NCBI GenBank assembly: GCA_900314215.1
Contig: OMUK01000095.1
Location: 1 to 50,894, forward strand
Origin: an uncultured Prevotellaceae bacterium
GTDB taxonomy: Bacteria; Bacteroidota; Bacteroidia; Bacteroidales; Muribaculaceae
Length of the DNA stretch: 50,894 nucleotides
Reading direction: 5' to 3'
Both the position numbers and the translations under genes were made by a program. Of the stretch, positions 39,027 through 45,781 are shown piece after piece. The notes under the pieces were generated by a model. It was given only the letters and a program-made list of their open reading frames with translations, was not told the DNA's origin and did not search any database. The first letter of the stretch is position 1. The number at the start of each line of letters is the position of its first letter.

Positions 39027-39260
39027 ATGTCGATTGGTATTCAATAAGTTATTAGGTGAACGATTGGGTTGCCGCATTGGCGAAATCGCCGCATGGCGCC
39101 ACCGACTTGTAGGGGCCGGTCTTGTGCCGGCCCACGACAATGTTGCTTCACATTTTATTGATTATTAATAGGATGAAACCGTGTATGTGTGGGGGGCCGA
39201 AACAAGATTGGCCTCTGCAGGTTTCTGTGCTTTGTGCTGTGTTTAATGAAACAGTTGCTC
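39027..39260 (+). repeat. REP-like composite repeat, copy A (inverted relative to copy B)
   Basis: Matches the reverse complement of 41620-41849 at roughly 85-90% by eye. It contains two hairpins with related arms: GGGCCGG/CCGGCCC (39113-39133), directly preceded by GTAG, and GGCCGA/TTGGCC (39195-39213) in opposite orientation. A GTAG next to a palindrome is the hallmark of REP elements mobilised by RAYT transposases, and two facing hairpins make a BIME-like unit. The last 20 bp are identical to the reverse complement of the 3' end of the nucleotidyltransferase gene. Confidence 0.8.
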
Positions 39261-39309
39261 TACCTGCGCCTGCGCATCTCCACATTCAGGTAGCATAAGT
39301 GGAAACCGC

Positions 39310-39454: not shown

Positions 39455-40888
39455 ATGAATTCCGATATTCTGAAAGAGTTATATACCAAATATGTGGGCA
39501 CTGAGCCTGCTCATGTAGAAGAGATGCCCGCCTCGGGCAGCAACCGCCACTATTTCAGGCTCACAGGCGAGCAGTCGCTCATAGGCGTGCTGGGAGAGTG
39601 CAGGGAAGAGAACGAGGCCTTCCTCTACATGGACAAGCACTTTCTCGCGCGAGAGCTGCCAGTGCCACGGGTAGTTGCCGAGAGCGACGACCACATGGCC
39701 TACCTGCAAGAAGACCTGGGCGACTTGTTGCTTTTCAAGGCTATTGAGAAAGGCCGCAAGACCCGCGTGTTTGGCGAAGAGGAGAAAAAGTTGCTTGCCA
39801 AGACGATAAGGCTGCTGTGCAAGTTCCAGTTTGTGGGAGCCGACGGCATGGACTTTGACTACTGCTACCCTGCCAAGGAGTTTGACTCGCGCAGCATCTT
39901 CTGGGACCTGAACTACTTCAAATATTGCTTCCTGAAAGCCACTGGGCTGGAGTTTAACGAGGGCCAGCTCGAGGACGACTTCCAGCGGCTGTGCGACGTG
40001 CTGCTGCGCAGCAACTCGGCCACCTTCATGTATCGCGATTTCCAGTCGCGCAACGTGATGATCAAGGATGGCGAGCCGTGGTTTATCGACTTCCAGGGTG
40101 GCCGCAAGGGTCCGTTCTTCTACGACGTGGCATCGTTTCTGTGGCAGGCAAAGGCCAACTTCCCCAACAGCCTGCGCCACGAGCTGCTCAAGGTGTATCT
40201 GCAAGAACTGAAGAAATACAAATTTGTCGACGAGCAATATTTTTACTCGCAACTGCGCCACTTCGTGCTCTTCCGCACGCTGCAGGTGCTGGGCGCCTAC
40301 GGCTTCCGCGGCTACTTTGAGAAGAAGCCGCACTTCATGCAAAGCGTGCCCTATGCCATCAACAACCTGCGCGAGCTGCTCAAGAAGCCCTATGTGGAAT
40401 ATCCCTACCTCAACAAGTTGCTCAACAACCTGGTGAACATGTCGCAATTTACCGACGAGCTGCAGAAGCACATGCTCACCGTGAAAGTGATGAGCTTTGC
40501 CTACAAGAAAGGCATCCCCAACGACCCATCGGGCAACGGCGGCGGCTTTGTGTTTGACTGCCGCGCATGCAACAACCCCGGCAAATACGACCGTTACAAG
40601 CCCTATATAGGCCTCGACGAGCCAGTGATAAAATTCCTGGAGGACGACGGCGAGATACTCACCTTCCTCGACCACTGCTATGCCCTGGTCGACGCCTCGG
40701 TAAAGCGATATATCGAGCGCGGCTTCACCAACTTGATGGTGTGCTTCGGCTGCACGGGCGGCCAGCACCGCTCGGTGTATAGCGCACAGCACATGGCCGA
40801 GCACATCCACAAGAAATTTAATGTGAAGGTTGAGCTCGTGCACCGCGAGCAAAACATAGAGCAGGTGTTCACCCCAATACAGAAGTAA
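39455..40888 (+). CDS. AmgK-like sugar kinase fused to a RapZ C-terminal domain
   Basis: A 477-residue two-domain cytosolic protein. Residues ~1-320 are an aminoglycoside-phosphotransferase-fold kinase: catalytic loop YRDFQSRN with Asp195 and Asn200, and the metal-binding DFQ at Asp212. This form is seen in AmgK, which phosphorylates MurNAc or GlcNAc at the anomeric carbon. Residues ~345-477 match the RapZ C-terminal domain: FVFDCRACNNP (Asp368), then CFGCTGGQHRSV (Cys433, His438, Arg439), the pocket that binds glucosamine 6-phosphate in E. coli RapZ. The RapZ ATPase domain is absent. A MurU-like nucleotidyltransferase follows 5 bp later, which fits cell-wall sugar recycling. The sensing role is inference. 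Confidence 0.85.
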   Translation: MNSDILKELYTKYVGTEPAHVEEMPASGSNRHYFRLTGEQSLIGVLGECREENEAFLYMDKHFLARELPVPRVVAESDDHMAYLQEDLGDLLLFKAIEKGRKTRVFGEEEKKLLAKTIRLLCKFQFVGADGMDFDYCYPAKEFDSRSIFWDLNYFKYCFLKATGLEFNEGQLEDDFQRLCDVLLRSNSATFMYRDFQSRNVMIKDGEPWFIDFQGGRKGPFFYDVASFLWQAKANFPNSLRHELLKVYLQELKKYKFVDEQYFYSQLRHFVLFRTLQVLGAYGFRGYFEKKPHFMQSVPYAINNLRELLKKPYVEYPYLNKLLNNLVNMSQFTDELQKHMLTVKVMSFAYKKGIPNDPSGNGGGFVFDCRACNNPGKYDRYKPYIGLDEPVIKFLEDDGEILTFLDHCYALVDASVKRYIERGFTNLMVCFGCTGGQHRSVYSAQHMAEHIHKKFNVKVELVHREQNIEQVFTPIQK

Positions 40889-40893
40889 GAGCG

Positions 40894-41637
40894 ATGAAAG
40901 CAATGATATTTGCGGCTGGGCTGGGCACTCGCCTGCGCCCGCTCACCAACGACCGCCCCAAGGCCCTGGTAGAAGTGGGCGGCAAGACCATGCTCGAGCG
41001 CGTGATTACCCACGTGGCCGAGTCGGGATTTGACGACATCACCATCAATATCCACCACTTTGGCCAGAAGATCATCGATTTTCTTGCCGAGAAGAAAAAC
41101 TTCGGGCTCAACATCCACATCAGCGACGAGCGCGACCTGCTGCTCGACACGGGCGGCGGCCTGCTCAAGGCCAGGCGATATCTCGAGCAGGGCGACGAGC
41201 CCTTTCTCGTGCACAACGCCGACATCCTCACCGACCTCGACCTGCGTGCAATGCACGACTACGCCTGCGGCAGCAATACCCTATCGACCATACTGGTGAA
41301 GCCGCGCGTCACACAGCGATATTTTCTCTTCGATAAGGCCAACCAGTTGCAAGGCTGGGTGAACAAGAAGACTGGCGAGACACGGCCCTCGGGCATGGTT
41401 TACACGCCTGGCAAGTATACCGAACTGGCCTTTGGCGGCATCCACATGATTTCGCCCAAGATATTCCCGCTGCTCGAGCAATATGCCGGCAGCGAGCGGG
41501 TGTTCTCAATCACGCCATTCTACATCGACGAGTGCAAGCATCACGCCATACACGGCTACCAGCCCGCCGGCGACTACCTGTGGCTCGACGTGGGCAAACC
41601 CGAAACCCTGGCTCAAGCCGAGCAACTGTTTCATTAA
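40894..41637 (+). CDS. murU: MurU-like sugar-1-phosphate nucleotidyltransferase
   Basis: Predicted to convert MurNAc or GlcNAc 1-phosphate to the UDP-sugar, bypassing de novo synthesis. 247 residues, the length of MurU. The pyrophosphorylase signature GLGTRLRPLTNDRPKALVEVGGK is at the N-terminus; the metal-binding HNADILTDLD and the C-terminal DYLWLDVGKPETL are present. It is 5 bp downstream of the kinase-RapZ gene. The last five codons (EQLFH) and the stop lie within repeat copy B, so the C-terminus has apparently been set by the repeat. The enzyme family is firm; the exact sugar is inferred from the kinase partner. Confidence 0.85.
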   Translation: MKAMIFAAGLGTRLRPLTNDRPKALVEVGGKTMLERVITHVAESGFDDITINIHHFGQKIIDFLAEKKNFGLNIHISDERDLLLDTGGGLLKARRYLEQGDEPFLVHNADILTDLDLRAMHDYACGSNTLSTILVKPRVTQRYFLFDKANQLQGWVNKKTGETRPSGMVYTPGKYTELAFGGIHMISPKIFPLLEQYAGSERVFSITPFYIDECKHHAIHGYQPAGDYLWLDVGKPETLAQAEQLFH

Positions 41638-41849
41638 ACGCAACACAAAGCACAGAAACCCGCAAGGGCCGATCTTGTTTCGGCCCACACACACGGTTCC
41701 ATCCTCTTAATAATCAATAAAATAGGAAGCAGCATTGTCGTGGGCCGGCACAAGACCGGCCCCTACAAGAGGGTGGTACCATGCGGCGATTTAAGCCAAT
41801 GCGGCAACCCAATCGCAAACCTAATAACTTATTGAATGCCAATTGGCAT
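41620..41849 (-). repeat. REP-like composite repeat, copy B (inverted relative to copy A)
   Basis: Reverse-complement counterpart of 39027-39260. Hairpins: GGGCCGG/CCGGCCC (41742-41762), flanked by CTAC (41763-41766, GTAG on the minus strand), and GGGCC/CGGCCC arms (41666-41686). It starts inside the nucleotidyltransferase gene with GAGCAACTGTTTCATTAAAC and ends at a perfect 14-bp palindrome, ATGCCAATTGGCAT (41836-41849). Confidence 0.8.
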
Positions 41850-43642: not shown

Positions 43643-43867
43643 ATGAATGACATTTCCGACATATTGAGGTCACTGCTCGACCGCTATAGCATGGCAAGCG
43701 ACGCTGAAGCCGAGTTTGCGAGCATGCTTGAGCAGGATGCGACGCTGAAAAGCGATTACGACGTGTGGTGTGAAGCCAACGGTTATGATGTGAAAACAGG
43801 ATATCAAGATTACGTAGACGAGTTGATGGATTCTCGCGACTCGATATGGATAAACTTAAATGAATAA
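43643..43867 (+). CDS. Small acidic protein, unknown function
   Basis: A 74-residue, acidic, helical cytosolic protein (begins MNDISDILRSLLDRYSMASDAE; ends DSRDSIWINLNE). It has no signal peptide or membrane segment. Its stop overlaps the aguA start by 8 bp, so it is co-translated with the agmatine genes. Similar short proteins with a DYxxWCExxGY core and a C-terminal DSIW motif occur in related genomes as far as I recall, but they have no assigned role. A regulatory or assembly role for the agmatine pathway is only a guess from position. Confidence 0.65.
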   Translation: MNDISDILRSLLDRYSMASDAEAEFASMLEQDATLKSDYDVWCEANGYDVKTGYQDYVDELMDSRDSIWINLNE

Positions 43868-44909
43868 TCAACACAGGCACATCACACTACCGGCCGAGTG
43901 GCATCGTCAAGATGCCATCATGCTGGCTTGGCCCCATGCCGATACCGACTGGGCCTATATTCTCGACGAAGTGCGGCAATGCTACAAAGACATTGCCAGG
44001 CACATTGTGCCTGGCGAAGACCTCATTGTGGTGACTCCCGATGTGGAGATGGCTCGGGCCGACCTGGGCGACTTGATAGCGAGCTATCGCGGCAAAACAC
44101 ATATCTATGACTTGCCCACCAACGACACCTGGGCGCGCGACTTCGCCCCCGTCACCGTTGAAGTGGACGGACACATGACCCCGCTTGACTACCAATTCAA
44201 CGCCTGGGGCATGAAATATGCAGCCGACCGCGACAACCTGGTGAGCCAGAGGCTCGATGCACGGCAACTATTCAAGCAGCCGCTCGTCGACTACCACAAC
44301 TTTGTGCTCGAGGGCGGCTCGATAGAGAGCGACGGCAACGGCACCTTGATGACGACTGCCAGCTGCCTGCTCGCCCCCAACCGCAACGAGCACTACACGA
44401 GAGCCGATATCGACCGCTTTCTGCAAGAGACCCTGGGCGTGAGCAACATCATCTGGCTCGATCACGGCTATGTGGCCGGCGACGACACCGACGGGCACAT
44501 CGACACCCTGGCACGGTTTGCCCCCGGCAACACCATCGTATACAACGGCCCGGGCAATCAAAACGACGCTCAGGCCGAGAGTCTTGCCAAGATGAGACAA
44601 GAACTGCAGGCGGCACGCAACGCCGCCGGCGAGCCCTATCGCCTGCTGGAGCTGCCCATGCCAGAGCCCATTGCCGACGAGGATGGCAGCAGGCTGCCAG
44701 CCACCTATGCCAACTTCCTGGTCATGAACAGGCGCGTGCTCGTGCCCACCTACCGGCAACCCAGCCTTGATGCCCAAGCCCTGGCTGTGATACACGCGGC
44801 ATTTCCCGACCGCGAAATCGTGGGCATCGATTGCACACCGCTCATCAAGCAACATGGGTCGCTGCACTGCGTGACCATGCAGTTTCCCACCAATACTCTG
44901 AATTTATGA
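43860..44909 (+). CDS. aguA: Agmatine deiminase
   Basis: Hydrolyses agmatine to N-carbamoylputrescine and ammonia. 349 residues. The guanidine-modifying-enzyme fold is evident: TWARDFAPV, EGGSIESDG with the substrate-binding acidic residues, DTDGHIDTLARF with His213, and the nucleophile Cys337 in GSLHCVTMQ. The start overlaps the small upstream gene by 8 bp, and its stop overlaps the aguB start (ATGA), so all three are translationally coupled. Members of the wider peptidylarginine-deiminase-like family exist, but the aguB neighbour settles the agmatine reading. Confidence 0.95.
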   Translation: MNNQHRHITLPAEWHRQDAIMLAWPHADTDWAYILDEVRQCYKDIARHIVPGEDLIVVTPDVEMARADLGDLIASYRGKTHIYDLPTNDTWARDFAPVTVEVDGHMTPLDYQFNAWGMKYAADRDNLVSQRLDARQLFKQPLVDYHNFVLEGGSIESDGNGTLMTTASCLLAPNRNEHYTRADIDRFLQETLGVSNIIWLDHGYVAGDDTDGHIDTLARFAPGNTIVYNGPGNQNDAQAESLAKMRQELQAARNAAGEPYRLLELPMPEPIADEDGSRLPATYANFLVMNRRVLVPTYRQPSLDAQALAVIHAAFPDREIVGIDCTPLIKQHGSLHCVTMQFPTNTLNL

Positions 44910-45781
44910 AGATAGGCATTATACAACAGCATTGCACAAGCGACGTGGCCGACAACCAGAAGCGCTTGCTGGCTAAAATTGAGAAACTGGCAAAACAAAG
45001 AGCCGAACTTGTCGTGCTACAGGAATTGCACGACTCACTCTACTTTTGCCAAACCGAGAATGTAGACAACTTCGACCTAGCCCACCCCATACCTGGCGAG
45101 GCCACGGCAATATATTCACAAGCCGCGAGAGCATGCGGCGTGGTGCTGGTGGCCTCGCTCTTTGAGAAGCGGGCTGCCGGCCTGTATCACAACACGGCCG
45201 TCGTCTTTGAGAAAAACGGAGAAATAGCCGGGAAATACCGCAAGATGCACATCCCCGACGACCCGGCCTATTATGAGAAATTCTACTTCACCCCGGGCGA
45301 CCTGGGCTTCAATCCCATCAAGACCTCGGTGGGCACGCTGGGCGTGATGGTGTGCTGGGACCAGTGGTATCCCGAGGCTGCCCGCCTGATGGCGCTCAAG
45401 GGCGCCGAGATGCTCATCTACCCCACTGCCATAGGCTACGAGAGCAGCGACACACCCGACGAGAAGCAACGCCAGCGCGAGGCGTGGATCACCGTGCAAC
45501 GCGGCCATGCCGTGGCCAACGGGCTGCCCCTTGTCGCCGTGAACCGCGTGGGGCATGAAGACGACCCCTCGGGCCAGACGGGCGGCATCGACTTCTGGGG
45601 CAACAGCTTTGTGGCCGGACCGCAAGGCGAACTGCTATACCAGGCCCCTACCGACGAGGAAGCCGTGCAGGTGGTCGACATCGACATGAAGCGCAGCGAG
45701 AACGTGCGCCGCTGGTGGCCATTCTTGAGAGACCGCCGCATCGACGCCTACCAGGAAATCACCAAGCGATTTATCGATTAG
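44906..45781 (+). CDS. aguB: N-carbamoylputrescine amidase
   Basis: Nitrilase-superfamily enzyme completing putrescine synthesis from agmatine. 291 residues. Catalytic triad: Glu40 (QELHD), Lys113 (YRKMHIPD) and Cys150 (VCWDQWYPEAAR). The frame is open 75 bp further upstream inside aguA, but the ATG that overlaps the aguA stop gives the family's N-terminus MKIGIIQQ. Its stop overlaps, on the opposite strand, the stop of the convergent DUF5686 gene by two bases, leaving no space for a terminator. Confidence 0.95.
   Translation: MKIGIIQQHCTSDVADNQKRLLAKIEKLAKQRAELVVLQELHDSLYFCQTENVDNFDLAHPIPGEATAIYSQAARACGVVLVASLFEKRAAGLYHNTAVVFEKNGEIAGKYRKMHIPDDPAYYEKFYFTPGDLGFNPIKTSVGTLGVMVCWDQWYPEAARLMALKGAEMLIYPTAIGYESSDTPDEKQRQREAWITVQRGHAVANGLPLVAVNRVGHEDDPSGQTGGIDFWGNSFVAGPQGELLYQAPTDEEAVQVVDIDMKRSENVRRWWPFLRDRRIDAYQEITKRFID

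Follow-up and report, generated by a model that had tools for sequence, protein, structure and literature searches.

The locus described here raises the question of what the C-terminal domain of RapZ is doing when it is joined to a sugar kinase. It was found in a window (the whole stretch of DNA that was analysed) of 50,894 nucleotides, contig OMUK01000095.1 of an uncultured Prevotellaceae bacterium, in which a gene on the forward strand (39455..40888) encodes an AmgK-like kinase fused to the RapZ C-terminal domain (hereafter RapZ-C).

Domains of the fusion protein and the gene that follows it

The reading frame runs from an ATG at 39455 to a stop at 40888 and encodes a protein of 477 amino acids. 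An initial annotation of this DNA had described it as a sugar kinase fused to the RapZ sensor domain, and the profile searches agree with this description: residues 25-256 match the APH family (PF01636, E 9.7e-15) and residues 341-466 match the RapZ C-terminal domain (PF22740, E 3.2e-32), the latter with 111.7 bits for a cut-off of 27, which establishes the C-terminal part as RapZ-like. The kinase part (residues 1-335; 39455..40459, forward strand) was best recognised, among the NCBIfam kinase models, by that of AmgK (NF045759, 66 bits, E 3.2e-18, residues 16-327), with a score under the cut-off of 550. Solved structures searched by sequence gave 3csv for residues 27-305 (E 7.1e-10), and this was also the nearest solved fold of the kinase part (TM 0.78 by target). 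The AmgK-type catalytic loop previously noted at Asp195, Asn200 and Asp212 was confirmed, residue numbers included, as the three residues are invariant in 27/27 and in 55/55 aligned fusions.

RapZ-C occupies residues about 340-477 (40472..40885, forward strand). Residues 339-460 match E. coli RapZ among the solved structures (E 1.5e-14) and, in a Foldseek comparison, the model of the domain matched the fold of E. coli RapZ (5o5s) with a TM of 0.91 by target length; the model of the full-length fusion reached a pTM of 0.76. Inputs for structure prediction were 55 of 81 full-length sequences and 46 domain sequences. The RapZ model NF003828 gave 100 bits (cut-off 244) and covered model positions 150-277 of 278 only, in keeping with the earlier statement that the domain is detached from the RapZ ATPase domain: the N-terminal ATPase domain of RapZ is not in the fusion, whose N-terminal part is an APH kinase by Pfam. 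The source genome (90% complete, 140 contigs) gave a single PF22740 match, hence no full-length RapZ besides the fusion in this search.

Five nucleotides downstream of the fusion stop, and on the same strand, lies a gene (40894..41637) for a nucleotidyltransferase of 247 amino acids that is recognised by the MurU (NF045761) and NTP_transferase (PF00483) models, as expected from the operon originally proposed. NF045761 was the best NCBIfam model, with 135 bits for a cut-off of 250; the top two models were both MurU families, both under their cut-offs, and the protein also matched other sugar-1-phosphate families. The operon lies between two inverted copies of a roughly 240-bp repeat (39027-39270 and 41610-41849), which show 87-91% complementarity in three blocks. 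The idea that they mark the edge of a mobile element was rejected, since the repeat belongs to a dispersed family with 86 matches in the source genome. Further along the window, a PAD_porph (PF04371) protein is encoded at 43860-44909 and its gene overlaps the start of a frame (44831-45781) that looks like a carbon-nitrogen hydrolase by eye.

Occurrence of the fusion and its linkage to murU

Fusions of this kind had been supposed to exist in related genomes, and a survey of 296 Bacteroidota genomes, source genome included, bore this out. PF22740 was present in 36 of them, fused to the kinase in 27, as a separate gene in 7 and alone in 2. The same survey gave the frequency of co-occurrence with murU: 36/36 genomes with RapZ-C also carry a close kinase homologue (E<1e-40) and MurU (E<=1e-30). 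In the 7 genomes with a separate domain (L113-L119), RapZ-C is encoded by a short gene that follows the kinase gene and precedes murU, and in the two stand-alone cases (G180 and G271) kinase and MurU-like genes are found elsewhere in the genome. The kinase part matched 100 of the 296 genomes. In 37 the match was close (E<1e-40), and G009 is the sole one of these without RapZ-C; the other 63 kinases all belong to one family (f18), show about 24-29% identity among the matches listed and have no RapZ-C match. MurU (E<=1e-30) was detected in 38 genomes, namely the 36 with RapZ-C, G009 and G231.

Regarding the position of murU, it lies within 1.5 kb on the downstream side in 21 of the 27 genomes with a fusion and elsewhere in the genome in the other 6. 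A wider scan of contigs returned at least 586 relatives, whose titles name Bacteroides, Parabacteroides, Phocaeicola, Prevotella, Muribaculum and MAGs of Ignavibacteriales and Calditrichia; the best 80 were kept and all 80 are fused, a choice of best matches that favours fused forms. At 58 of these 80 loci murU is found on the same strand at most 400 nt downstream (median gap 18 nt), and at one further locus (L091) it overlaps the fusion by 5 nt. On one MAG contig (L079:7998-10277), kinase, RapZ-C and MurU are encoded in a single frame of 760 amino acids, for which a sequencing error is possible. Beyond these three proteins, no neighbour was conserved at over 12 loci, a count that covers 95 of 99 loci (L041, L059, L091 and L100 were left out as the anchor ORF was missed).

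A tree of 120 domain sequences separated the six full-length RapZ from all others (SH-aLRT 100) and placed the split and stand-alone forms inside the fused ones. From this nesting, the splitting of RapZ-C from the kinase looks secondary and would have happened at least twice, in a tree made by a quick method in which 52 of 117 inner branches are weak and several long branches were flagged. RapZ-C matches were also noted in other settings. On an actinomycete plasmid (L140:2219-3498), a NUDIX gene is followed by one for a short RapZ-C protein, and several similar partial matches on Streptomyces plasmids were among the matches listed. Three records from human faeces labelled Bacteriophage (MT836462, MT839161 and MT837443) carry the whole fusion at 70-74% identity and are probably bacterial DNA. 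In RefSeq, two annotated fusion records are named 'RNase adapter RapZ'.

The association of kinase, RapZ-C and MurU is a real and recurrent coupling in a known pathway, and no description of the kinase-RapZ-C fusion was found in the open literature searched. Compared with AmgK-MurU recycling in Pseudomonas, which includes MupP, the kinase and nucleotidyltransferase families are alike and their genes usually adjacent, but the kinase here bears RapZ-C. It is likely that the two window genes constitute a MurNAc salvage unit, in which the kinase part would phosphorylate MurNAc (perhaps GlcNAc too) at C1 and the downstream product, judging from its family and from gene linkage, would make UDP-MurNAc. 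Because RapZ-C co-occurs so regularly with the kinase, its probable role is to carry out or sense one step in cell-wall recycling and not to bind RNA.

The pocket and the CX5R loop of RapZ-C

Six full-length RapZ (E. coli, Xanthomonas, Azospirillum, Paracoccus, Latilactobacillus and Fusobacterium) were compared residue by residue with 113 domains of the present family (104 fused, 7 split and 2 stand-alone). In RapZ numbering, D182, R184, N188, P189, G246, C247, G249, G250, H252, R253 and S254 are identical across both sets, and T248, which is Ser in only one of the six RapZ, is invariant in the 113. The 11 positions D182, R184, N188, P189, C247, T248, G249, G250, H252, R253 and S254 are thus invariant in 113/113 sequences. 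The window protein has in common with the E. coli domain (5o5s) the fold, the CTGGxHRS loop, D182, R184, N188, P189 and also H276. Of the five residues of the ligand pocket (H190, T248, G249, H252 and R253), four are kept and H190, which is His in four and Tyr in two of the six RapZ, is Gly in 113/113 (Gly376 in the window protein). The family also differs from E. coli RapZ by Gln or Arg in place of K251 and by a five-residue glycine-rich insertion (residues about 358-364; approx. 40526..40546, forward strand), not found in the six full-length RapZ compared, which precedes the D182 strand and in which G362-G364 are invariant in 55/55. The pocket that had been described as retained is therefore kept in its loop and changed at His190 and by the insertion. 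It follows that the GlcN6P specificity cannot be carried over; the phosphate loop in common with RapZ still speaks for an amino-sugar phosphate as ligand, and the altered pocket would argue for one that is other than, or larger than, GlcN6P.

The loop GCTGGQHRSV (residues 432-441; 40748..40777, forward strand) contains C433-TGGQH-R439-S440, which fits CX5R(S/T), the signature of Cys-dependent phosphatases, and both Cys433 and Arg439 are invariant. In the AlphaFold model a strand (426-433) leads into the loop and a helix starts from 439; across the models, the Cys stands at the strand end and the helix starts at or near the Arg, a placement of the loop between strand and helix that is also found in Cys-dependent protein tyrosine phosphatases. 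By contrast, among the Foldseek matches listed for the domain (50 of 122), RapZ chains were found and no tyrosine phosphatase fold, so that the likeness is local and the domain is not classed as a Cys-dependent phosphatase. The initial annotation did not mention this loop, which provides the most specific prediction. Its likeness to Cys-phosphatase loops is already known: Khan and Goerke (2020) reported the RapZ pocket as homologous to them and speculated on GlcN6P hydrolysis (PMC7199280).

As the mechanism that we favour, though with less than even confidence, we propose that RapZ-C may be a cysteine-dependent MurNAc-6-phosphate phosphatase that replaces MupP within the MurNAc salvage unit. 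The domain would act on an amino-sugar 6-phosphate: the CX5R loop and Arg439 would hold the phosphate group of MurNAc-6-phosphate for attack by Cys433, after which the freed MurNAc would pass to the fused kinase. RapZ-C would in this way stand in for the Pseudomonas HAD phosphatase MupP, with which it has only the proposed reaction in common, the two sequence families (HAD and RapZ-C) being unrelated. We infer this substrate and this catalysis from the 36/36 co-occurrence, from the order kinase, RapZ-C, MurU that is kept in the 7 split genomes and in the 760-residue frame, and from the invariant CX5R loop. Against it counts that E. coli RapZ is known for binding GlcN6P and not for hydrolysing it, and that the loop match is a local one. 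Further support comes from the published loop homology (PMC7199280) and from E. coli RapZ itself, where C247A and C247S are reported to abolish activity and the density seen after GlcN6P soaking or growth was reported as likely a chemically transformed product (PMC9841335). D182 is another candidate catalytic residue, but the C-terminal domain of RapZ is also reported to need it in order to interact with itself (PMC7073468).

A close rival, which we regard as a substantial minority possibility, is that RapZ-C binds GlcN6P or MurNAc-6P without turnover and acts as an on-off switch of the kinase, which would match salvage to de novo supply. The isolated C-terminal domain of E. coli RapZ is indeed reported to bind GlcN6P with a KD of 10 nM, and the same source describes full-length RapZ as giving no response to GlcN or Glc6P (PMC7073468); the kept phosphate loop and the match to 5o5s point the same way. 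However, the pocket residue His190, whose change to Ala is reported to abolish E. coli RapZ activity (PMC9841335), is the one replaced by Gly throughout the family, which has gained the insertion as well, and 7 genomes encode domain and kinase as separate proteins. Moreover, binding alone does not explain the invariant Cys433, though RapZ needs its Cys too. The original suggestion that an amino-sugar signal tunes salvage thus keeps the phosphate loop in its favour and has the altered pocket against it. It is unlikely that RapZ-C serves just to dimerise the kinase or to dock MurU, with a pocket that is a relic: the RapZ C-terminal domain is reported to dimerise by itself (PMC5737377), and here the domain is linked to kinase and MurU and in one case fused to both, but a relic pocket is not expected to keep 11 positions unchanged across 113 sequences.

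Amino-sugar 6-phosphates and the MurNAc pathway

The proposed phosphatase was then set against the other MurNAc enzymes. In P. putida, MupP is reported to take the 6-phosphate off MurNAc-6P before AmgK (PMC5371407). AnmK was rejected as a simple predictor of RapZ-C, being present in 24/36 genomes with RapZ-C vs 182/260 others; these 260 include 63 AnmK-less f18 genomes, and outside f18 AnmK is found in 182/197 genomes without RapZ-C. Strong MurQ matches (>=268 bits) were obtained in 17/36 RapZ-C genomes, of which 15 exceed the cut-off and one contains a stop codon; two further matches of 42-45 bits, in frames of 611-613 amino acids, were taken to be another SIS protein. AnmK without strong MurQ thus occurs in 12/36 genomes (12 of the 24 with AnmK), in which MurNAc-6P should form without the known etherase exit. 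In 8 of these 12, differing in this from Pseudomonas, the MupP model gave no match at E<=1e-10, and in the other 4 it gave 44-101 bits for a cut-off of 359.

This gap in the pathway supports the phosphatase proposal, which is weakened by several of the same data. The MupP cut-off was passed by none of the 36 RapZ-C genomes, 24 of which have HAD matches under it, and by none of 14 control genomes, one being Caulobacter, for which a MupP homologue is reported (PMC13046382); a true MupP can therefore lie under the cut-off and be missed. The 17 genomes with strong MurQ need no phosphatase, AnmK does not predict RapZ-C and the contrast set comprises about two independent cases.

Among the remaining 12 RapZ-C genomes, which lack AnmK, MurQ was found in 5 (including the source genome) and a PF01869 kinase of about 300 amino acids in 7, PF01869 being the family of the MurNAc 6-kinase MurK (PMC5790795). 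A MurK-like gene lies beside MurQ in the source genome (90% complete) and in G230, as in the MurT-MurK-MurQ system of Tannerella forsythia, with a PF01869 match in G230 only. A permease that is AmpG-like by eye adjoins the PF01869 kinase in 7/7 loci (L164-L170); with the AmpG family model, the permease of L164 scored 180 bits and that of L163 168 bits, both under the cut-off of 350. Several of the loci from genomes without AnmK (L164-L172) have a GH3 hydrolase-like gene near this kinase and permease and, in L164, Pfam detects a GH3 domain fused to a beta-lactamase-fold domain. In the genomes that have the kinase and lack RapZ-C, AnmK was found in 0/64, MurQ in 0/25 and PF01869 in 0/7, where the 64 are the 63 of f18 plus G009, or about two independent cases. 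This pattern fits a domain dealing with amino-sugar 6-phosphates, with a contrast of about two lineages and with kinases that are common throughout the phylum.

We consider it very unlikely that the kinase and nucleotidyltransferase serve another sugar, GlcNAc or a heptose, and that the domain handles the corresponding 6-phosphate. The scores far under the cut-offs (66 of 550 bits for AmgK, 135 of 250 for MurU) and the matches of the nucleotidyltransferase to other families would allow this, but AmgK and MurU are the best models for the two proteins. In addition, a MurU-like gene follows the distant kinase homologue in f18 loci L144-L148, and at the two loci checked with Pfam, L146 and L148, the next gene encodes the exo-muramidase NamZ (in L148:6944-11494, kinase, MurU-like protein, NamZ and a sodium:solute symporter stand in a row), which supports MurNAc as substrate of the wider family. 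T. forsythia is described as having an AmgK-MurU route (PMC7670621) and is also named among the species with this pathway (PMC13046382); its AmgK and MurU, expressed in E. coli, are reported as a working labelling control (PMC13041923).

An RNA-linked role like that of RapZ for GlmY and GlmZ, which the initial annotation had entertained, is highly improbable and was rejected on residues: the fold is in common with the RNA-binding domain of RapZ and 98/104 fused sequences have Lys or Arg where RapZ has K170, but the family lacks the RNA-binding tail of E. coli RapZ, K270, K281, R282 and K283 having lost their basic character (V457, I468, E469 and Q470 in the window protein), R238 is Phe or Trp in 104/104 fused sequences, and the RNA-binding region is described as restricted to Enterobacteriaceae (PMC7073468). 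It should be noted that K270 is found in just one of the six full-length RapZ compared and that R238, K270 and K281-K283 are partly non-basic in non-enteric RapZ.

In a broader form that we hold to be doubtful, RapZ-C at its root could be a Cys-dependent amino-sugar-6-phosphate phosphatase, the missing MurNAc-6P phosphatase of AmgK-MurU in Bacteroidota and their relatives, joined there to the enzyme of the following step; the GlcN6P sensor of E. coli could then be a derived version that works slowly or no longer at all. For the two RefSeq fusions, the name 'RNase adapter RapZ' is misleading. If the phosphatase proposal is true, RapZ-C would be a candidate for the phosphatase reaction in the recycling of cell-wall sugar by Bacteroidota. 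The 7 genomes that encode it as a small separate domain between kinase and murU make the chemistry of the RapZ pocket directly testable.
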